A stretch of 64,000 bases of DNA, taken from contig JAJDOH010000003.1 of assembly GCA_022340265.1 (NCBI GenBank), forward strand, positions 1 through 64,000, read 5' to 3'. Below, piece by piece: positions 951-41,300 of the stretch. Source of the DNA: Deltaproteobacteria bacterium. Its GTDB lineage: Bacteria; Desulfobacterota; DSM-4660; Desulfatiglandales; Desulfatiglandaceae. The translations under genes and the position numbers were made by a program. The stretch's first letter is position 1. The number at the start of each line of letters is the position of its first letter. A model generated the notes under the pieces. It was given only the letters and a program-made list of their open reading frames with translations, did not search any database and had not been told where the DNA came from.

Positions 951-2270
951 TTGAAAAAGAACTATTTTCTTTATAAGGGCAACGCAAAAGAATCGTTTAC
1001 AATACCCTCTGGGTGGACCGTTAAGGAGCACACCCGATTTCCGGAAACCGTACCTCAAACACCCGTCAGTGACCTCGTCAGGCGCGCTCTGGCTCATCCG
1101 GCAGGCAGCAAACGCCTTTCCCAAATGGCCGAAAAGGGCATGACGGTGGCGATCATTGTGGATGATCCCGCCCGGGCAACCCCGGTAGCTCACATGTTGC
1201 CCCCCATTCTGCATGAGCTTCTCACTGCCGGAATTGCCAGAGAAAATATCACCATCGTAATGGCCCTGGGGACACACCGCTTGGCATCTCAAAAAGATCT
1301 TGAAGTCAAAATCGGAAAAGATGTGCTTCAGGAATATCGGGTGGTGCAACATGATTGTCATGCAAAGAACCTGGTCCCCATCGGAAATCTGTTAACGGGC
1401 GGTATTGTGGCCATTGATCCCATTGTGGCCGAGGCGGCACTCAAAATCGGCATCGGCTCCATCTTCCCTCACCCCATGAACGGATTCGGGGGTGGTGCCA
1501 AAATCCTCTTTCCAGGGGTTGCCGATTTTGCCTCCATCAGTGAACACCACTTTCATTATACACCGGAGCCGGGATGTGTTCTGGGGCATACTGAAAACAA
1601 TCCTTTCTATAAAGAAGTCTGTCGCATGGCGGAAGCGGCAGGGCTGGATTTCATCGTCAACGGCATTTTCGACGCCAGAGAGCGTGTGGTGGATGTGGTG
1701 GCCGGCCATTATGAAAAAGCCCACCTTCAAGGAATTGAAAAAAGCAAACGGAACTATGCTTTTCACATGACGGAACCCGCGCATGTTACTCTGGTTTCAG
1801 CCGACCCTTATACGGAAGGCCCACAGATCATGAAACCCGTTATCCCCGCGTCCCTCATGACCACCAAACCCGGAGGCGCCGTCATTGTTCTGGCCCGATG
1901 CCCCGACGGCATGCCGGAAGCCATGCTCCGGTCCTTCGACAATATTTTCAAGACCCGGCCGGAACATTCAGGGCGCTATGCGGTAGACGCCTTTAAGAAT
2001 GCGCGACCCATGGCGGAAGGCGCCATCGATTTCAACTGCGCCATTTTTTTCGCCCTGGTCTGTGCGTCCCGTACCCGCATCACCATTGTGTCCGAGGATC
2101 TGGATGAGACGTCCGTAAGCCGTCTGGGCTTTCAGTATGCCCCTTCCCTTAAAACAGCCGTTCAACTGGAACGGGAGATGCAACCCAAAGCCACGGTAAA
2201 TATTTTTCCCCTGGGGGGATTGCTGCTCCCCCTCCTGCCGTCGTTAACCCATTTATATGAATTTAAATGA
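951..2270 (+). CDS. LarA-like nickel-pincer racemase family protein
   Basis: This is a lactate racemase LarA family protein (DUF2088 plus C-terminal domain) of about 440 residues. With the TTG start at 951, preceded by AAGGA at 935-939, the DDPARATP motif is at residues 71-78, GTHR at 107-110, His174 in FPHPMNG and Lys184 in GGGAK. These match LarA residues R75, H108, H174 and K184 that act in catalysis and hold the nickel-pincer nucleotide. A TTG at 930 in the same frame lies before the ribosome binding site and is less likely. The family racemizes or epimerizes 2-hydroxy acids; the substrate here is unknown. The adjacent IorAB and TRAP genes suggest a 2-hydroxy acid, possibly aryl-lactate (inference). 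Confidence 0.85.
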   Translation: MKKNYFLYKGNAKESFTIPSGWTVKEHTRFPETVPQTPVSDLVRRALAHPAGSKRLSQMAEKGMTVAIIVDDPARATPVAHMLPPILHELLTAGIARENITIVMALGTHRLASQKDLEVKIGKDVLQEYRVVQHDCHAKNLVPIGNLLTGGIVAIDPIVAEAALKIGIGSIFPHPMNGFGGGAKILFPGVADFASISEHHFHYTPEPGCVLGHTENNPFYKEVCRMAEAAGLDFIVNGIFDARERVVDVVAGHYEKAHLQGIEKSKRNYAFHMTEPAHVTLVSADPYTEGPQIMKPVIPASLMTTKPGGAVIVLARCPDGMPEAMLRSFDNIFKTRPEHSGRYAVDAFKNARPMAEGAIDFNCAIFFALVCASRTRITIVSEDLDETSVSRLGFQYAPSLKTAVQLEREMQPKATVNIFPLGGLLLPLLPSLTHLYEFK

Positions 2271-32396: not shown

Positions 32397-33647
32397 TTAC
32401 AGATTTTCCCATAAATCCCAAAACTGTGGAAAAGATTTATTGACGCAGGCGGGATTTTGTATGCGAACTCCCGGGATTCTTAAACCGATCACCGCCAGGC
32501 TCATGGCCAGGCGATGATCGTCATAGGTATCGACATCGGTCCCATGAAGCGGCTCCTCCCCATGGATCACCAGAGAATCTTCGAATTCTTCCACTCTTCC
32601 GCCCAGTTTTCGCCATTCCCGGGCCACGGCGCTCAGCCGGTCGCTTTCCTTAAATCTGAGGTGCGCAACATTCGAAATGGTGGTTTTTCCCTGGGCGAAA
32701 AGGGCCACCGCCGCAAGGGTGGGTACCATGTCGGGCATGGCACCCATATCCACGTCCACAGCGCTGAGCTTTCCCCCCGATACGGTCACCCGATCGGTGT
32801 CTCTCTGAATGGCACATCCCATTTGTTCAAAGACCTCCAGCAGCCGGACATCCCCCTGGCGGCCTTGGGGGTTGATGTTTTTTGTGGTGACCGTTTTTCC
32901 CGTAATCGCCGCACCGGCCCAAAAATAGGAGGCGGATGACGCATCTCCCGAAACCGTGTAGTCCATGGAACGATATGTTTGCCCGCCGGAAACGCTGAAC
33001 CGTGCAAAACCTGTTCGTTCAACGGAAACGCCGAAGGAATTCATGACATCGATGGTCACATCCACGTACGGTTTTGAGACCAGATCCCCTTTGACCGTGA
33101 TATCCACACCCTTTTCGGCGTAAGGGCCGGAAAGGAGAAGAGCCGACAGAAACTGACTGCTGGCATCCCCGGGCAGGTTTATGGCGCCGCCCCGTATTCC
33201 GCCCGACAAAATACGAACGGGAGGAAACCCGTCGCGCCCCGTACAGGCGATCCTTACACCCAGTTGCCGGAGTGCGTCCACCAAAGGTCCCACGGGACGA
33301 TCCCGCATGCGGGGCGTTCCCGTCACCAGAAAACGGCCTCCTGCCAAGGCCAGCACCGGCAACATCAGTCTAAAGGAGGTTCCAGAATTCCCCAGATAAA
33401 CCGCCATTTCCCACGGCTGATCACACTTCTTTTGATCGATCCCTTCCACAACCAGATGATCATCCCGCCGTTTCATCCGGACCCCGATGTTTTCGAGGGC
33501 GCGAGCCGTGTGAAGCGTATCTTCACTGATGAGGTCATTTCTGAGGATGGTGGTCCCTTCCGCCAGCCCACCGGCGATGAGCGCCCGATGGGTGATGCTT
33601 TTGGACCCTGGCATGGTCACCGCCAGGTGATTTTCAAATTTTGTCAT
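32397..33647 (-). CDS. aroA: 3-phosphoshikimate 1-carboxyvinyltransferase (EPSP synthase)
   Basis: AroA joins phosphoenolpyruvate to shikimate-3-phosphate. The 416-residue protein has the N-terminal motif MPGSKSITHRALIAGGLAEG, LGNSGTSFRLMLPVLA near residue 90 and LRFKESDRLSAVAREW near 340, all diagnostic. The N-terminus is slightly shorter than usual. It is the last gene of the aroK-aroC-pheA-aroD-aroE-aroA operon and lies 24 bp after aroE. Confidence 0.97.
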   Translation of the reverse strand: MTKFENHLAVTMPGSKSITHRALIAGGLAEGTTILRNDLISEDTLHTARALENIGVRMKRRDDHLVVEGIDQKKCDQPWEMAVYLGNSGTSFRLMLPVLALAGGRFLVTGTPRMRDRPVGPLVDALRQLGVRIACTGRDGFPPVRILSGGIRGGAINLPGDASSQFLSALLLSGPYAEKGVDITVKGDLVSKPYVDVTIDVMNSFGVSVERTGFARFSVSGGQTYRSMDYTVSGDASSASYFWAGAAITGKTVTTKNINPQGRQGDVRLLEVFEQMGCAIQRDTDRVTVSGGKLSAVDVDMGAMPDMVPTLAAVALFAQGKTTISNVAHLRFKESDRLSAVAREWRKLGGRVEEFEDSLVIHGEEPLHGTDVDTYDDHRLAMSLAVIGLRIPGVRIQNPACVNKSFPQFWDLWENL

Positions 33648-33671: not shown

Positions 33672-34484
33672 CTATATTGAAAGCGCATTTGTCACCACAT
33701 CCCGCATGACGATCAACGGGGCTTCCCTGCCCGTCCATAATTGAAACTGCAAAGCCCCCTGATGGATAAACATCTCAAGACCACTGATAATCTTACAACC
33801 CCTTGAGCGAGCATCCTTCAGCATTTTCGTCTCCATGGGGTTGTAAACGGCATCCATCACCACCATCCCTTCTCGGAATATATCACTCGGTACGGGAGAC
33901 GCGTTTTCCCGCGGAAACATGCCCACCGGCGTCGTCTGGATCAAGACATCCACATCCAATTCCCCAATCTTTGACAGGGGGACAAAAGGGCATTTCAAAA
34001 AATCCGCAAGGGCCCCCCCGCGATCTTCAGACCGATTGGAGACCGTAAGATTCATCCCGTTCTTCGTGGCCATGAATCCGACGCCCCGGGCCGCCCCGCC
34101 CGCTCCCACCAGCACACATCTTTTGCCCGCCGGGAAAATCACCGCATCCAGGGCCTTCATGGCCCCCGATCCATCCGTGTTATAGCCCTTCAATAGTCCG
34201 TTCTCATTTACAATGGTATTGACGGCTCCGATCTTTTCCGCAAGGGGGTCCAACGCATCCAGATACGCCATTACCTCCGTTTTGAATGGAATGGTCACAC
34301 TCATGCCGCGGATGCCCAGCGCCCGCATTCCCACAACGCTTCCCTTGAGGTCCGAGGATTCGAGGGCCACATAACAGGAATTGATACCTTCCGCTTCAAA
34401 GGCCGCATTGTGCATGGCAGGGCTCAGGGAATGGCCGATGGGATTGCCCAGTACCCCATAAATTCTTGCGGGTCCCTTTTTCAT
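33672..34484 (-). CDS. aroE: shikimate dehydrogenase
   Basis: AroE reduces 3-dehydroshikimate with NADPH. The 270-residue protein has GVLGNPIGHSLSPAMHNAAF (substrate-binding Ser residues), VTIPFKTEVMAYLD with the catalytic Lys, NTDGSGAMKALD, and the nucleotide-binding VLVGAGGAARGVGF. Its start codon overlaps the aroD stop (ATGA). Confidence 0.97.
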   Translation of the reverse strand: MKKGPARIYGVLGNPIGHSLSPAMHNAAFEAEGINSCYVALESSDLKGSVVGMRALGIRGMSVTIPFKTEVMAYLDALDPLAEKIGAVNTIVNENGLLKGYNTDGSGAMKALDAVIFPAGKRCVLVGAGGAARGVGFMATKNGMNLTVSNRSEDRGGALADFLKCPFVPLSKIGELDVDVLIQTTPVGMFPRENASPVPSDIFREGMVVMDAVYNPMETKMLKDARSRGCKIISGLEMFIHQGALQFQLWTGREAPLIVMRDVVTNALSI

Positions 34485-35149
34485 TGTGAGAGCACCTCCA
34501 GTATCATTTTCATCTCTTTTACCGTCATCTGACCCGACGCCGATTCCTGACCCCTTTCAAGAGCGGCAAAGGTGAAGGCCCCTCCCAAAAGGGGAGATGC
34601 CACCCGGCTTATGCGTCCAAGGGGCCCCATGCAAAAAGTGACGATCTTAACGCCCATCCCTTCCGCCTGCGGGATTAAACCCAGTACGGTCAGGTTGTCT
34701 TCAGGGGTCCCGGCACGGGTCACAATTTTCACCACATGGGCCCCTGTGGCAGCCATCTTCCGGAATAGATTCGACAGGGATTCCCGTGAAGGCGTGCCGT
34801 TTCGAAAGTGCTTTGATAAAATGAGTTTGGTGCGGCCGCGGTTTTCAAACAAGGGACGCCGGTGTTCAAGGGGAACGGTATATTCCACGTCCACGAATTC
34901 CACACCCAGCCGGATTGCTTCCCTGAGATAATCTATGCGGGTGTGATAAGGTGCTGACCCTTCTCCTCCCTCCTTTTTGGATCGATATGTAATGATGATG
35001 GGTTTGGAAGCAAACCCGACCATCTCTTTCAAATCAAACACATCCATGACATCCAGCCGGATTTCCATGAGATCACAGAAATCGGATGCGACCCGCATCT
35101 TGTTAAGGGCATCGGCGGTATTTTGTGCCAGAATGGGAATACAGATCAT
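34481..35149 (-). CDS. aroD: type I 3-dehydroquinate dehydratase
   Basis: AroD of the class I, Schiff-base-forming type has 222 residues. EIRLDVMDVFD, ITYRSKKEGG and FVDVEYTVPL match the family. The catalytic His/Lys region is around LILSKHFRNGTPS and GAHVVKIVTRAGTPEDN (Lys in VVKIV). It starts with ATG at 35149 after AAGGGAA and follows pheA by 35 bp, a gap filled by a tiny ORF. Confidence 0.95.
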   Translation of the reverse strand: MICIPILAQNTADALNKMRVASDFCDLMEIRLDVMDVFDLKEMVGFASKPIIITYRSKKEGGEGSAPYHTRIDYLREAIRLGVEFVDVEYTVPLEHRRPLFENRGRTKLILSKHFRNGTPSRESLSNLFRKMAATGAHVVKIVTRAGTPEDNLTVLGLIPQAEGMGVKIVTFCMGPLGRISRVASPLLGGAFTFAALERGQESASGQMTVKEMKMILEVLSQ

Positions 35150-35152
35150 GGG

Positions 35153-35188
35153 TCATGTTCCCTTTTCAATCACCCACGCCTCTTTCAT
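35153..35188 (-). CDS. possible 11-codon mini-ORF between pheA and aroD
   Basis: An ATG at 35188 overlaps the pheA stop as ATGA and is preceded by GGAGG six bases upstream. It encodes MKEAWVIEKGT and stops three bases before the aroD start codon. It may simply pass ribosomes from pheA to aroD (translational coupling). Evidence is only the strong ribosome binding site and position. Confidence 0.35.
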   Translation of the reverse strand: MKEAWVIEKGT

Positions 35189-36312
35189 GACACACCTCCG
35201 GAGGGATAGGACCCCAGCCATTTTGTGAATACAACCATGCGCTTCATCTTTGACATGGCATCCACAAGGGCGGGATCCTTTCGGTGTCCTTCAAGATCCA
35301 CAAAAAACAGGTATTCCCAGGATCGATTGGGCATGGGTCTCGATTCGATGCGACTCATGTTGATGTCGCTTTCAGCCAGCATGGACAGCACCTCTGACAG
35401 GGCACCGGGACGGTGGCCCAGGAAAAAGAGCAGTGTGGTCTTGTCCTTTCCGGTGGGCTCGGGTTCGCCGTTTCCAATCACCAGGAATCGTGTCACATTG
35501 TGGGGCTCGTCTTCGATATCTTCACTGAGGACCTGGAGCCCCAGGGTTTCTGCCAGAAACCTGCTTCCCAGCGCGGCACCATGGGGATCTTCGGCTGCCA
35601 TTCGCCCCGCCTGGGACGTGCTTTCCACCAGCTCAAAAGGCATCTCCGGCAGATGGGTTTTGAGCCAGGAGCGACACTGGGCCAAGGGCATGGGGTGGGA
35701 ATAAAGTTTCCCAACGGCTTTTAAATCAGGATTATTGGACATCAGACTGAGTCGAATCCGGAGATAGTATTCGTCGCTGATCTTTAAATCAAATTTGTTA
35801 AACAAATCCCATATCCCGGCTACCGATCCTTCCAGGGAATTTTCCACAGGAATAACACCCAGTTGACAATGTCCCTTTTCCACGGATCCAAAAATGTCCT
35901 CGAAGGTGCGAAACCCGCAAAATTGAGCGGCGTTTCCAAAAATGGAAAGTGCCGCCTGATGTGAAAAAGTCGCCTCGGGTCCCAAAAAGCCAATTTTTAG
36001 CGGTCCCTGAACCGCTCTTCCCGCAGAAATAATCCGGGTATAAATGTCCCTAATGGCATCCGGTGAAAGGCGGCCTTGATGTTTTGCGGCCATCCTGTCA
36101 AGAATTGCCTTTTCACGCACCGGATCAAAGACCGCCATTCCCATATTGCTTTTTACCTGCCCGATGGCAGCCGCCACATCCATTCTTTGACGCAAAAGCG
36201 ACAGAATCTTCCCGTCAATGGCGTCAATTTCTTTTCTGCTACGGTCCAGCGTTTCCCAACCGGCTTCATCATCCTTTCCGGATTTCATTTCTCTATTTTC
36301 CCCTGTTCTCAT
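35185..36312 (-). CDS. pheA: bifunctional chorismate mutase/prephenate dehydratase
   Basis: PheA converts chorismate through prephenate to phenylpyruvate. The protein of about 375 residues has an N-terminal AroQ-type chorismate mutase (IDAIDGKILSLLRQRMDVA), a prephenate dehydratase domain beginning IGFLGPEATFSHQAA with VIPVENSLEGSV and HNVTRFLVIG (TRF motif), and a C-terminal ACT domain with HRPGALSEVL and SRIESRPMPN, the expected Phe-binding site for feedback control. The likely ATG at 36312 overlaps the stop of a Phe-rich small ORF (ATGA). A GTG 12 bp upstream is an alternative. Confidence 0.96.
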   Translation of the reverse strand: MRTGENREMKSGKDDEAGWETLDRSRKEIDAIDGKILSLLRQRMDVAAAIGQVKSNMGMAVFDPVREKAILDRMAAKHQGRLSPDAIRDIYTRIISAGRAVQGPLKIGFLGPEATFSHQAALSIFGNAAQFCGFRTFEDIFGSVEKGHCQLGVIPVENSLEGSVAGIWDLFNKFDLKISDEYYLRIRLSLMSNNPDLKAVGKLYSHPMPLAQCRSWLKTHLPEMPFELVESTSQAGRMAAEDPHGAALGSRFLAETLGLQVLSEDIEDEPHNVTRFLVIGNGEPEPTGKDKTTLLFFLGHRPGALSEVLSMLAESDINMSRIESRPMPNRSWEYLFFVDLEGHRKDPALVDAMSKMKRMVVFTKWLGSYPSGGVS

Positions 36313-36425
36313 TTTAAGAAACACCCTTTAACAAACCATTGAAATATCTTATGCGGCCGCTTCCCAAAAAGCGGACCTCTAAAACCGAAAAAATAATCAA
36401 AACCGAATGTCATATCCATGGTCAT
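36309..36425 (-). CDS. aromatic-rich small ORF coupled to pheA
   Basis: This 38-codon frame begins MTMDMTFGFDYFFGFRGP and has nine Phe, one Tyr and one Trp, about 29% aromatic. The ATG is preceded by AAGGA eleven bases upstream, just after the aroC stop. Its own stop overlaps the pheA start codon (ATGA). A small CCGCTT...AAGCGG hairpin lies inside it. By analogy with PheL-type leader peptides it may tune pheA translation to Phe-tRNA charging (inference). No terminator with T-run follows, so classic attenuation is not indicated here. Confidence 0.55.
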   Translation of the reverse strand: MTMDMTFGFDYFFGFRGPLFGKRPHKIFQWFVKGCFLK

Positions 36426-36441
36426 GAAACGTAACGTCCTT

Positions 36442-37509
36442 TTAAACACCAAAAACCTGCCCAACGGCTTTAGCCCGCAGATAATGATCGGCCAGCACAA
36501 TGGACACCATGGCTTCAAGCACCGGCACAATGCGGGAAACAGCGGTTACGTCAAACCGGCCTGTCAATTCCAAAACTGCATCATGCCCTTCCCGGTCAAC
36601 GGTCTTCTGCGGTTTCATGATGGAAGGGATTGGTTTTACAGCGGCACGCAGCACCAGATCATCCCCATTGGAAATACCCCCCAGAATTCCCCCGGACCGG
36701 TTGGATGAAAATCCCGCTGAAGTGATGGGGTCGTTGTTCTCTGAACCTCTCATGCGGGCCGCTTCAAAACCGGCACCCACTTCCACCCCTTTGACCGCCC
36801 CCACGGACATGATGGCTTTGGCCAGTTCTGCATCCAACTTGTCAAATACCGGCTCGCCCAGGCCCGCGGGGCATCCCATCACGAGCACTTCAACCACCCC
36901 GCCCAGACTGTCCCCTTCTTTACCGGCCTGATCCAGAGCAGCCAGCATCCTTTCCGCGGCTTCGGCATCGGCGCAATAAAGTGGATTCTGATCAACAGCG
37001 GTTGGGTCCATGAACGCGGCGCGAATCCCTCCAACTTCAAGGGTATGCCCCAAAATGGAGATACCAAGCGGTGCCAGCACCTTTCGCGCCACAACGCCGC
37101 ATGCCACACGGGCGGCCGTCTCCCGAGCCGATGCCCGGCCGCCCCCCCGGTAATCCAGATGACCGAATTTCTTAAAATAGGTGTAATCCGCATGTCCCGG
37201 CCTGAACAGGTCCTTGAGGACACCGTACGGTTTGCTTTTCACATCCCGGTTTGCCACCAGCAAAGCCAATGGCGTTCCGGTGGTATGCCCTCCGAAAACA
37301 CCTGACAGAATCTCCACTCGGTCTTCTTCCGATCGCGGCGTCTCAAATGACGACTTCCCTGGCCTGCGACGTTCCATCGCCTTTACGAAATCGGCTGCTT
37401 CAAGCGGTATCCCCGAAGGACATCCGTCGATAACGGCGCCCAGTGCCTTTCCATGGGACTCGCCGAATGTGGTGATTCTAAATGATTGTCCAAAGGAATT
37501 TCCGGCCAT
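36442..37509 (-). CDS. aroC: chorismate synthase
   Basis: AroC forms chorismate from EPSP with reduced FMN. The 355-residue protein has FGESHGKALGAVIDGCPSG at the N-terminus, GHADYTYFKKFGHLDYRGGG (His and Arg of the active site), ASARETAARVACGV, and a C-terminal SIMKPQKTVD. The ATG at 37509 follows GGAGAAGGG; a GTG 15 bp upstream overlaps that site. It is the second gene after aroK. Confidence 0.97.
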   Translation of the reverse strand: MAGNSFGQSFRITTFGESHGKALGAVIDGCPSGIPLEAADFVKAMERRRPGKSSFETPRSEEDRVEILSGVFGGHTTGTPLALLVANRDVKSKPYGVLKDLFRPGHADYTYFKKFGHLDYRGGGRASARETAARVACGVVARKVLAPLGISILGHTLEVGGIRAAFMDPTAVDQNPLYCADAEAAERMLAALDQAGKEGDSLGGVVEVLVMGCPAGLGEPVFDKLDAELAKAIMSVGAVKGVEVGAGFEAARMRGSENNDPITSAGFSSNRSGGILGGISNGDDLVLRAAVKPIPSIMKPQKTVDREGHDAVLELTGRFDVTAVSRIVPVLEAMVSIVLADHYLRAKAVGQVFGV

Positions 37510-37524
37510 TGATCCCTTCTCCAC

Positions 37525-38106
37525 TTATGAGTTTAACACCGAGGCAAAAAACATCTCCCCCGACTGAACCCGCTCCTGCAAAAGCGCCGACGCCGCCGGC
37601 ATACTTCTGATGATCTCTTTTGATACCGCCCGGGGGGATTTTTGATCCGTGTTCACCACATGATCGCCGGCACGATCGTAAAGGGGCGTTCTTTTCGCCA
37701 GGACCGCCTCGATCTCCGCCAGCGGGCTTATCCCTGCCAGTCCGGGCCGCACCCGGCCAGATTCCTCATCCCGGGTCATGCGCTCATGAAGGATTGAAAG
37801 GGATGCCTGTAACCAGATCACCCACCCAGACTCCCTGAGATAGTGAACGTTTTCCCAGTCCAGAATAACACCGCCCCCGGTGGCAATGACCTGGTTGTCC
37901 TGACCGGAAACGGATCGAACGACCATCTTTTCCACCATTCGAAAGGGATCCCACCCGTTTTCGGCCACATACTGATCAATGGTGCAGGCAATCTTTTCCT
38001 CCAGGACCTGGTCCGTATCCACCAGTTTCAGACCCAGATCCTTTGCCAGGATTTTTCCCACCGCGCTTTTCCCGCTGCATCGATACCCGATTAAAACAAT
38101 ATTCAT
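37525..38106 (-). CDS. aroK: shikimate kinase
   Basis: The 193-residue kinase has the Walker A motif GYRCSGKS at residues 7-14, the shikimate-binding VDTDQVLEEKI and GGGVILDWENV, and the lid Arg region around RVRPGLAG. It is the first structural gene of the aromatic operon. Its ATG at 38106 lies 28 bp after the T-run of an intrinsic terminator, which is in turn preceded by a leader peptide. An in-frame open stretch upstream runs through the terminator and is not considered coding. Confidence 0.95.
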   Translation of the reverse strand: MNIVLIGYRCSGKSAVGKILAKDLGLKLVDTDQVLEEKIACTIDQYVAENGWDPFRMVEKMVVRSVSGQDNQVIATGGGVILDWENVHYLRESGWVIWLQASLSILHERMTRDEESGRVRPGLAGISPLAEIEAVLAKRTPLYDRAGDHVVNTDQKSPRAVSKEIIRSMPAASALLQERVQSGEMFFASVLNS

Positions 38107-38133
38107 AATAAAAGGCCTGAAGCTTTTTTTACC

Positions 38134-38174
38134 AAAAAAAAGCCGTGGATGCGTTTGAAGGCGTCCACGGCTTT
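38134..38174 (-). terminator. intrinsic terminator in the aro operon leader (attenuator)
   Basis: On the minus strand AAAGCCGTGGA (38164-38174) pairs perfectly with TCCACGGCTTT (38139-38149) around a 14-base loop, followed by eight T (38134-38141). It lies between the leader peptide and aroK, inside the transcript from the 38309-38336 promoter. It could also end transcription from the RND operon upstream. Confidence 0.85.
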
Positions 38175-38210
38175 GAAAATCCACAAAAAAGAGCATCTCA
38201 GAGCATGGAC
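38163..38210 (-). promoter_or_regulatory. candidate antiterminator pairing
   Basis: GTCCATG (38204-38210), which overlaps the last codons of the leader peptide, can pair with CGTGGAC (38163-38169), the 5' arm of the terminator, with seven pairs including one G-U. A ribosome held at the aromatic codons would leave GTCCATG free; a ribosome at the stop codon would cover it. This is the expected logic of an attenuator, inferred from sequence. Confidence 0.6.
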
Positions 38211-38263
38211 AGACCTCCGCCAAAATAAAAATAAAAGCCCTGCCATGATCGGTTCAAAAACAT
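38198..38263 (-). CDS. aromatic amino acid leader peptide of the aro operon
   Basis: A 21-codon frame starts at ATG 38263 and begins MFLNRSWQGFYFYFGGG. It contains Trp at position 7 and the run Phe-Tyr-Phe-Tyr-Phe at 10-14, and it stops at 38198-38200. AGGGA lies eleven bases before the ATG. It sits between a sigma70-like promoter and an intrinsic terminator directly upstream of aroK. This is the layout of pheL/trpL-type leader peptides, with Phe and Tyr codons as the likely sensor. Confidence 0.8.
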   Translation of the reverse strand: MFLNRSWQGFYFYFGGGLSML

Positions 38264-38308
38264 TGTTCTGCTGTTCCCTGTTGTATTTAATTCAATGAAT
38301 GGGATGCA

Positions 38309-38336
38309 ATTAAACCCAATCAAAATATTTTGTCAA
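38309..38336 (-). promoter_or_regulatory. promoter of the aromatic operon
   Basis: TTGACA (38331-38336) and TTTAAT (38309-38314) on the minus strand are 16 bases apart. It lies between the end of the RND gene and the leader peptide, so transcription would pass through the leader and terminator before aroK. Confidence 0.7.
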
Positions 38337-38354: not shown

Positions 38355-41300
38355 TCAGCGTTGCAGATCCCCCTTTGGATTCCTTTCCGGATGAAACAGG
38401 GAATAGACCGCCGGAATCAGCACCAGCGTAATCAAGGTTGATCCGGCAAGCCCTCCCACAACGGCCCGTGCCAGGGGGGCCTGGGCATCGGCCCCCTCAC
38501 CAATCCCCAGCGCCAGGGGGAGCAGTCCCAGGATCGTCGTAAGCGTCGTCATGAGAATGGGCCTCAGCCTGCGGCGGCCCGCCTCGATCAGCGCATGGTG
38601 AGTGTTCGTGCCGGTGCGAACCAGTTGCCCGGCCTGGTCCACCAGGAGTACGGCGTTGTTGACCACGATCCCCCCCAGCATGATGCACCCGATATAAGAC
38701 TGAACATTCAAGGTGGTTTTGGTCATGAAGAGGGTCACCAACACCCCCACAGCCGCCAGGGGTACAGAAAACATCACCACCAGGGGATCCCTGAACGACT
38801 CGTATTGACAGGCCAGGACCATGTACACCAGCACCAGGGCCAGCACGATGGAAACAGCCAGTTCCCGAAAGGCCTTCTGCTGTTCTTCGAAATTGCCGGC
38901 CACCATGAGGTCGTACCCCATGGGACGGGGTATCCGGTTCAACCGGGTCTGCACCTCTTGTGCCACGGAACCCTGGTCGCGGCCTGCCACATTGGCCTGG
39001 ACCGTGAACATTCGCTGCTGATCCTTTCGATCGATCAAAAGAGGGCCACGTCCCGCTTCGGTGACCACCAGGTTCCGGAGGGACACCTGTTCGCCCGAAC
39101 CGGTGGCAAGGGTGAGGTTCAAAATTTCGTCCAGAGACCGTTTTTCCGCATCTTTTAATTGCACCCAAATGCGATAGGAATTCCCGCCCGTTCGGTACTC
39201 GCCTGCTTTGGAACCGGCCACCGCCGTTTCCAACAGCTGGGTCACGTCTCGCACGGTGAGATCCAGATCGGCGATTTTGCTTCGGTCCACCTGGATTTCC
39301 TGTTGCGGGACGCCCGCCTCGAGGCTGGTTTGAATATCCGTAATCCCCGGCACATCCTTAATCTCTTCCGTCACCCTTCGAACCAGGACGCCCAGAACCG
39401 CCAGATCGAATCCCCGAACCTCGATGGTCAGCCCCTCATCACCGCCCAGGATCCGTTCCAGCAGAAACTGCCCCTGGGGTGCACGAACACGGATCTCCAT
39501 GCCGGGGATTTGATCTTTTAAACGACGACGCAAATCGCCCGCGATTTCCACATTGGAACGATCCCTTCGTGCTGCCGGCACCAGGCTCAAAATGATTTGC
39601 CCTTCCGCCCCTGAGTTGGGCCGCCAGCCGGAAGCCCCGACGCTGACCACCGATGCCACCGCTTCCGGTACCGCCGGGTAGACGATGGCTTCCATCTTCC
39701 GTGTCTGGCGATCCACCAGTTCCAGCCGGGTGCCGATTTCCATCTTTCCGCTGACCCGAACTTCACCCTCATCGCTGGGGGGGATGAATTCACTCCCGAT
39801 GAACGGTAACAGCAGCAGGCTTGCGCCCAGCAGGGCACAGGCCACAAAGATCGTGACCAGTCGGTGGCGCAGAACCGTTTTCAGCAGCCTCAGATAAGCG
39901 TTATCCAGCCCCAAAAAAAGGGCGTTGGAGAAAGTCATCAATCCTTCGATCCAGGGCTTTCTTTTTTTCTGAAGCGTAAGGGTGGATTTGAGCAGCCTTG
40001 ACGCCAGCATGGGCACCAGGGTCAGGGAAACGGTCAGGGAACAGATGAGGGAGAAGATGATCACATAGGCCAGTTCCTTGAAGAGAATTCCCGTCACCCC
40101 CTGCACGAACACCAGGGGCAGGAAAATCACCAGGGTCGTGATGGTACTGGCCACGATGGCCTTTCCCACTTCTTGAGCCCCTTCTACCGCGGCAACGGCG
40201 GGCGTTTCGCTGTTCTCGTAGCTTCTGCGGAAAATATTTTCCAGCACCACAATGGAGCTGTCCACCATCATGCCCACCCCCAGGGCCAGTCCCCCCAGGG
40301 TCATGAGATTGAGGGTAAAACCTCCGAAGTACATGAGGGCAAAAGTAGCGACAATTGAGATGGGGATGGAGAGGGAAATGGCCACGGTGCTTCTTAAATT
40401 ACGCAGGAAAAAGAGGAGCACCAGGATGGCCAGGCCGCCGCCGTAGAGTACCGAACGGGCGACGTTCTTGATGGACCGTTCGATGAAGTTTCCCTGATTG
40501 ATGACCGGAACGATGTGAATCTGGGGGTAGGCCTCATTGGCCGCCTTGATTTCCGCCAGGACCCGTTTGGCCACCTCCACCGTGTTGGCATTGGCCTGTT
40601 TGCGAATGGCCACCCGGATCCCCTGTTGGCCGTTGACCCGGGTCATGCGCGTCAGCTTTTCGTAGGTGTCGTTCACGTCCGCAATCTGGTCGAGGGTTAC
40701 CGCTCCCCCGCCCCGCTTCACAATGACCGTATCCCGAATCTGATCCAGGCTGGTGAATTCCGCCGGTGCGCGAAGGGTCACCTCGTACCGCCCCTGTTCG
40801 ATCTTGCCCGTGGGAAGATCCAGGTTGGCGTCTTTGATGGCGGCAATCACACGATCCATGGAGAGCCCGAGGGCTTTAACCCGATCGGGATCCAGCTCGA
40901 TGCGAACCTCGCGGTTGAATGCCCCCCAGGTATCCACCTGGGCCACACCCGGAATGCGGGCGAATCGGTATCGGATCTGGACATCAATCAATTCGGTGAG
41001 TTCCACCGGATCCAGGTTGCTGGAAATACCCAATATCACCACCGGATAGCTGGCAATGTCGAACTTTCGAACGCGGGGTCTGACGATATCATCGGGGAGT
41101 TCGTTGATTTCATCTTCCAGCATCCCCTGTACGTCGATGGCCGCGGCATCGATTTTGGTTCCCCAGACGAAGCTCACGCGCACACTGCTGTTCCCTTCCG
41201 ACGATGTGGACATGATCTCTTCCACGCCCGGAACCGTGGCGACGATTTCTTCAATGATCTGGGTGACCAGCCGCTCCATCACTTCGGGACTGGCCCCCTC

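Follow-up and report, generated by a model that had tools for sequence, protein, structure and literature searches.

How is an operon that joins the common shikimate pathway with pheA adjusted to the supply of the amino acids it makes? This question is raised by six genes on the minus strand of the window, that is, the whole 64-kb stretch of DNA analysed here, which are preceded by a short open reading frame (ORF) rich in aromatic codons. The first gene under the proposed control is aroK, coding for shikimate kinase (37525-38106, PF01202), and it is followed by aroC (chorismate synthase, 36442-37524, PF01264), pheA (chorismate mutase-prephenate dehydratase-ACT protein, 35185-36324 with the start perhaps at ATG 36312; PF01817, PF00800 and PF01842), aroD (type I 3-dehydroquinase, 34481-35149, PF01487), aroE (shikimate dehydrogenase, 33672-34484, PF08501 and PF18317) and, as the last gene of the operon, aroA (EPSP synthase, 32397-33647, PF00275). 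For all six genes, the Pfam domains agree with the operon named in an earlier note on this DNA, and according to these assignments the operon products make the amino acids that the leader would sense.

We propose that transcription of aroK-aroC-pheA-aroD-aroE-aroA is controlled by a classical ribosome-mediated attenuator at 38336-38134 (minus strand), and we put the probability of this reading at about 0.9. The parts of this device, the extent to which they are conserved and covary, and the agreement of its codons with a ribosome footprint were established by computation. The earlier note had already read the region as an attenuator, and conservation and the alternative pairings uphold this; the picture changes in that an arm 1 is added, Trp7 is probably involved in sensing and the leader is one of a set that extends over several operons.

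Layout of the aroK leader and proposed mechanism

The leader begins with a promoter-like element (38309-38336, minus strand, as are all features described in this section), composed of TTGACA (38336-38331), a spacer of 16 nt and TTTAAT (38314-38309), as had been described and as is kept in relatives. A weak Shine-Dalgarno-like AGGGA (38275-38279) is located approximately 11-13 nt 5' of the leader ATG and may serve as the ribosome binding site; purine-rich stretches are found at similar positions in relatives. The leader peptide ORF MFLNRSWQGFYFYFGGGLSML, with its stop codon, spans 38198-38263 and has 21 codons, including the Trp7 codon (38243-38245), a probable extra control codon in view of the Trp content of the relatives' leaders, and the control codons F10-Y11-F12-Y13-F14 (38222-38236), as previously stated. 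Arm 1, UCAUGGCAG (38240-38248), includes the codons for Trp7 and Gln8 and pairs with arm 2, CUGUCCAUG (38204-38212), which lies over codons 18-20 and can alternatively pair with arm 3, GCCGUGGACGC (38161-38171). The sequences of GTCCATG (38210-38204) and CGTGGAC (38169-38163) are those given in the earlier note, and the pairing proposed there between the two is possible. Arm 3 is shared between this antiterminator and the terminator, which it forms with arm 4, GCAUCCACGGC (38152-38142); arm 4 and the adjoining U8 (38141-38134) make up the 3' half of the intrinsic terminator (38134-38152). The terminator hairpin thus covers 38171-38142 and is followed by T8, and the ATG of aroK (38106) is located 27 bp further on. 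The eight T lie where they had been reported, but the stem GCCGTGGACGC/GCATCCACGGC is not the perfect 11-bp helix that had been claimed, as it contains 10 of 11 pairs with one C-A mismatch (8 + 2 pairs). The computed energy of the 3:4 hairpin is -16.9 kcal/mol, and the complete leader folds into 1:2 (8 pairs) and 3:4. As arm 1 is present and pairs with arm 2, the device is a full three-hairpin attenuator with the helices 1:2, 2:3 and 3:4.

Neither the leader promoter nor the terminator was listed by a simple promoter and terminator scan. Rfam covariance models gave no match at gathering thresholds in the 64-kb window, and at E values of up to 10 no amino-acid leader or T-box family was among the weak matches in the leader. 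The weak matches obtained there (tsr26, trpB and others) were judged to be due to chance.

A classical attenuator is recognised by its translatable short ORF, its end-product codon run, its terminator, its exclusive helices and the placement of its codons. Here, the ORF keeps its 21 codons in frame across relatives behind a weak ribosome site, and its translation is predicted. The run FYFYF together with W stands before aroK..pheA..aroA, and the 3:4 hairpin and its U-run precede the first structural gene. Pair counts and covariation indicate that 2:3 is exclusive with 3:4 and that 1:2 blocks 2:3, and the position of the codons relative to arms 1 and 2 agrees with masked folding of the window leader and 22 relatives.

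From the sequence, we infer that regulation in the cell would take the following course. The transcript would begin at the promoter 5' of the leader, and a ribosome on the leader peptide would move over Trp7 and then over F10-Y-F-Y-F14. A shortage of charged tRNA-Phe or tRNA-Tyr, and probably also of tRNA-Trp, would stall the ribosome with arm 1 covered, which would result in formation of the 2:3 antiterminator in place of 3:4 and entry of RNA polymerase into aroK. With all charged tRNAs plentiful, the ribosome at the stop codon would hide arm 2, 3:4 would form and transcription would stop at U8. Without translation, 1:2 would form and the terminator would win as well.

Conservation, covariation and ribosome footprint

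Both strands of the window were scanned for a short ORF with at least five aromatic codons out of six, followed by an 8-bp GC-rich hairpin and T5. The aroK leader was the sole site in the 64 kb, and none was found by the same scan in 20 block-shuffled windows. We regard conservation as the stronger evidence for the aroK leader. The regions upstream of aroK in genomes of the same family and in L002, L003 and L005 were compared, which was the check recommended in the earlier note, and both the aromatic codons and the alternative pairings turned out to be conserved. Homologous peptides with the family pattern ..QSWQ.FYFYF..GRG(L/M)PM(D/C), followed by the stop codon, are encoded approximately 140-215 nt before aroK, and most genera of the family have such a leader 5' of aroK/aroC. 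Of 22 related leaders, 21 have an exact TTGACA and a hexamer resembling a -10 box 5' of the leader ATG, and these promoter-like elements end mostly 26-47 nt before that ATG. The U8 intrinsic terminator is nearly invariant among relatives. Five family members (L101, L106, L096, L102 and L104) have no recognisable leader before aroK. In the aroK leader of L122 / L090 (G026), the ORF end GGAGGGGTATGTCCATGTGCTGATAA occurs twice in succession, so that arm 2 is present in two copies, which is either real or an assembly artefact.

A covariance model of the leader, R1, has matches in 35 of 46 family genomes and detects leaders in 61 of the 85 genomes that represent the order, a search of the class covering the same 85 genomes. 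Across Desulfobacterota, 56 of 395 genomes have matches at E <= 1e-4; part of the weaker matches (E above ~1e-4) was inspected by eye. Weak reverse-strand matches beside true leaders, for example at 38082-38174 on the plus strand of the window, were rejected, as they represent the palindromic terminator read backwards.

Two alignments were used to assess the helices, A1 with 21 leaders of the family and A2 with 57 leaders from the order and beyond. In relatives, the terminator core 3:4 is paired in 99-100% of cells (100% in A1) and 1:2 in 75-83% (83% in A1), and the antiterminator 2:3 is paired in 96.6% of cells in A1. In A2, for which the 2:3 helix was outside the model structure used for aligning, 2:3 is still paired in 92.4% of cells, compared to 28-48% in slid controls. 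Changes on both sides occur at five of the nine 2:3 pairs in A2 and amount to 27 cells versus 9.5 in shuffles, a value reached in 0 of 500 shuffles, with the significance being inflated by kinship. Helices 1:2 and 3:4 covary in A2 too, and in the larger alignment 1:2 has five pairs with changes on both sides. A single position even couples arms 2, 3 and 4, being U/A/U in the four leaders of the window's genus (g1) and mostly C/G/C elsewhere. We take these covariation counts as strong evidence rather than as exact probabilities, since related sequences are included. In fixed alignment columns, F and Y are exchanged through the middle base of their codons, and the values of C are 9, 4 and 18 for positions 1, 2 and 3 of the codon, which gives only moderate support to reading by a ribosome.

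Folding the leader in both states, as had also been suggested, gave 1:2 and 3:4 for the full leader and 2:3 with a masked ribosome. For the masked folding, the transcript extended to the end of arm 3, and the ribosome was represented by keeping single-stranded all bases between 18 nt upstream and 12 nt downstream of the A-site codon's first base. A ribosome placed at codons 7-14 allows 2:3 to form (8 pairs), and from codon 16 to the stop codon no 2:3 is formed. F10-F14 and Trp7 are therefore all inside the permissive zone, which ends just past F14. The last aromatic codon lies between -2 and +3 codons from the computed boundary in 22 of 23 leaders (window and relatives), and 148 of 164 aromatic codons fall into the ON zone compared to 206 of 364 other codons. 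According to this model, the codon run is placed as the geometry of a classical attenuator demands. When no ribosome is present and the transcript is cut at the end of arm 3, the minimum free energy fold favours 2:3, and correct default termination would hence require that 1:2 forms first during transcription.

Sensed amino acids and alternative readings

Is Trp sensed by the aroK leader besides Phe and Tyr? At least one Trp codon is present beside the Phe and Tyr codons in 24 of 24 leaders of the window family. Counted by genus, a Trp codon is found in 26 of 30 aroK/aroC leaders versus 3 of 18 Phe/Tyr-type leaders (p = 2e-6, uncorrected for phylogeny) and in 15 of 22 DAHP- or ADTH-synthase leaders versus the same 3 of 18 (p = 0.0015, again uncorrected), so that the pooled chorismate-pathway leaders have Trp in 41 of 52. 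The 18 Phe/Tyr-type leaders belong to aminotransferase, metallo-beta-lactamase-fold, CoA-ligase and binding-protein genes. Due to this enrichment of Trp codons in chorismate-pathway leaders, we lean towards the view that the aroK leader senses Trp too. One might instead argue that only Phe and Tyr are sensed and that Trp7 is kept as its UGG, together with the following CAG, builds arm 1 of the 1:2 helix. The codons of the WQ motif pair with arm 2 in most leaders, and structure alone could therefore retain Trp7; in addition, four of the 30 aroK/aroC genera lack Trp codons entirely. However, among the 11 genera without the arm-1 Trp, seven have a Trp in the aromatic run or just after it (p = 0.017 versus 3 of 18), and these codons, the difference of 26/30 to 3/18 and the Trp codons in the DAHP synthase leaders of the own genome speak against a leader that reads Phe and Tyr only. 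We consider restriction to these two amino acids the less likely option.

The attenuator reading as such has faced weaker competition. The gene of an RND transporter on the same strand ends at 38355, 18 bp before TTGACA, and it is conceivable that the hairpin terminates this upstream RND operon only, with the promoter of aroK lying below it and the peptide being incidental, which the earlier note had named as the finding that would refute it. However, promoter, peptide and arms 1-4 are kept at aroK/aroC despite other upstream genes, including a divergent trpE, and related leaders stand before unrelated loci. A simple terminator would also have no need for an arm 2 placed within the ORF and covarying with arm 3, and the 27 bp between the U-run and the ATG are all that is left before aroK. 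The leaders' own TTGACA, the varied upstream genes and the unrelated loci make this explanation very improbable. Little more can be said for control that is mainly translational, in which translation of the leader would be coupled to aroK or would free its ribosome site and the terminator would be secondary. The aroK reading frame does extend upstream across the terminator without a stop codon (ORF from 38223), but the U8 terminator is hardly ever altered and the leader stop codon lies more than 90 nt before aroK, and we give this option very little weight as well. Least probable of all is binding of the leader by a metabolite or tRNA (as in a riboswitch or T-box) or by a protein in place of reading by a ribosome, since, even if such elements also possess a terminator and an antiterminator, the Rfam searches gave nothing above chance in the leader, conservation is centred on the codon run and arms 1-4, the F-Y exchanges and the C counts follow codon positions, and the codon content follows the downstream pathway.

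Related leaders and known attenuators

A decayed second leader (MTMDMTFGFDYFFGFRGPLFGKRPH...), recognised by its homology to the leader of a congener, is located in the aroC-pheA gap (36309-36425, minus strand) and has lost its terminator; what remains there is a Phe/Tyr-rich peptide, MTMDMTFGFDYFFGFRGPLF... In the congener (L156/L003), the homologous leader MTLLNGFYYFFGWRGPPL.. is intact, is followed by a terminator and lies inside the operon 5' of an ADTH synthase gene. An ADTH synthase gene was looked for in the window's own genome and not found, with which the decay of the leader is consistent.

Several further leaders are encoded in the own genome. On contig C239, the leader MTGRNLTRFFYLATGGYLCP and a terminator precede a gene for an 855-aa protein. 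The trpE gene on C109 (L231) has the leader ..RNWWWRNLIQTRCADRI and stop codon, containing WWW and no Phe or Tyr, followed by a terminator. Two DAHP synthase genes follow leaders with terminators: that of the gene on C305 (L232) is ..GRFFWWWRWFSLGRGVWSG, with the Phe/Trp run FFWWWRWF, and that of the second gene, which adjoins aroB on C313 (L233), is MSRYFADSFSYYWFYTYKTCLPARR, with the Phe/Tyr/Trp run YF..SFSYYWFYTY. The third member of the DAHP synthase Pfam family in this genome, which is KDO-8-phosphate synthase-like, has no leader. In L231, a second terminator-like hairpin is found between the Trp-only attenuator and trpE.

Across the phylum, the genes behind R1 matches are aroK/aroC, DAHP synthase and ADTH synthase genes (TIGR01949, the alternative DKFP entry) as well as genes for a PLP aminotransferase (NF005305), trpE, acyl-CoA ligases, a periplasmic binding protein and the 855-aa protein. 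The trpE genes have W-rich leaders (WWW or WGW) and, in several genomes, are oriented divergently to the aroK leader. We find it plausible, with somewhat more confidence than doubt, that the aromatic metabolism of Desulfobacterota is run largely by related attenuators with a codon mix for each operon, namely Phe, Tyr and Trp for the chorismate pathway and DAHP synthases, Trp for trpE, and Phe and Tyr for aminotransferase, uptake and acyl-CoA ligase genes. Such a set would be an RNA counterpart of the TyrR and TrpR regulons, in which the aroK leader would sense three amino acids.

Phe leader-peptide attenuators are represented by pheL-pheA and pheM-pheST of E. coli and other gamma-proteobacteria. 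The aroK leader shares with them a short Phe-rich peptide, exclusive 2:3 and 3:4 helices, a U-run and the control of a pheA gene, but its run is a mixed Phe/Tyr run with an additional Trp, the operon comprises the common shikimate pathway besides pheA, and it has no Rfam match. The classical model of ribosome-mediated attenuation is trpL, which likewise has arms 1-4 with arm 1 beside the control codons and arm 2 over the end of the peptide. In contrast to the mixed aroK leader, the control codons of trpL are Trp codons only, and the own genome has a separate WWW leader for trpE. The multivalent attenuators of ilvGMEDA (ilvL) and thrABC (thrL) resemble the aroK leader in that several end products of a shared pathway are read by one leader peptide, but use branched-chain or Thr/Ile codons, whereas the aroK leader uses aromatic residues and belongs to the chorismate pathway.

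According to the citing passages in PMC5343134 and PMC1262725, Phe attenuators of gamma-proteobacteria were treated by Panina (2001). A survey of RNA-controlled regulons from 2013 considers that amino-acid attenuators may have originated in gamma-proteobacteria, with few transfers (PMC3766115), and a reconstruction of delta-proteobacterial regulation from 2004 makes no mention of leader peptides or aromatic attenuators (PMC545781). The uORFC-13-1 motif 5' of Acholeplasma aroF (PMC8632094) also combines a predicted Phe leader ORF with a terminator and controls entry into the shikimate pathway; it differs in that at least one Phe codon only, and no Phe/Tyr/Trp run, is described and in that gene and phylum are different. 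Closest in lineage is the aroA'-aroB'-pheA-aroF-tyrA-trp supraoperon of the delta-proteobacterium Desulfovibrio vulgaris, for which Table 7 of PMC1173090 (2005) lists a putative attenuator taken from the Merino database; the same alternative entry genes occur in the relatives studied here, but the table entry comes without a leader peptide, sensing codons or comparative evidence. The earlier note had held the aroK arrangement to be undescribed, and in view of this entry it is less unprecedented than claimed. In the open-access literature searched, we found no account of the common pathway being attenuated jointly by Phe, Tyr and Trp, or of the phylum-wide set, and subscription papers may contain an earlier mention. 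The mechanism is known; the attenuator is new for the aroK locus and belongs to a larger set that is apparently undescribed.

It is the scope and the codon logic that make aroK-type leaders interesting. Related attenuators appear to head many aromatic operons outside gamma-proteobacteria, including the DKFP entry pathway, and allow regulatory sites to be annotated in a phylum whose members are largely uncultured anaerobes. They also form a natural series in which the identity of the codons, rather than protein factors, seems to fix the amino-acid response of each operon, and they flag the 855-aa metallo-beta-lactamase-fold protein, the acyl-CoA ligases and the binding protein as probable participants in Phe/Tyr metabolism.

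Some of these leaders deserve separate mention. The 855-aa protein (L152, 487-3054, minus strand; homologues in L153-L155, L159 and L165) carries a metallo-beta-lactamase fold at its N-terminus and is of unassigned function, and its gene has a Phe/Tyr leader and terminator upstream in several genera. The acyl-CoA ligase genes of L178, L180 and L193 (acetate--CoA ligase alpha-like, AMP-forming) follow leaders with up to eight Tyr codons running, and these ligases possibly act in the salvage of aryl acids into aromatic amino acids. In L211 and L222, genes for ABC-transporter binding proteins are found behind Phe-rich leaders (AAFFFFYFFSF and IFNFFNF, respectively), which suggests a role in Phe/Tyr uptake. 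In L142, L147, L149, L157 and L176, a single intergenic region holds both the aroK leader (Phe/Tyr/Trp) and a W-rich trpE leader, the two diverging from each other. Lastly, L169 has tandem attenuators (1160-1293 and 1538-1669, minus strand), each with its own peptide and terminator, upstream of one gene, and tandem arrangements are likewise present in L190, L206 and L180, the genes concerned overall being those for an aminotransferase, ADTH synthase or CoA ligase.
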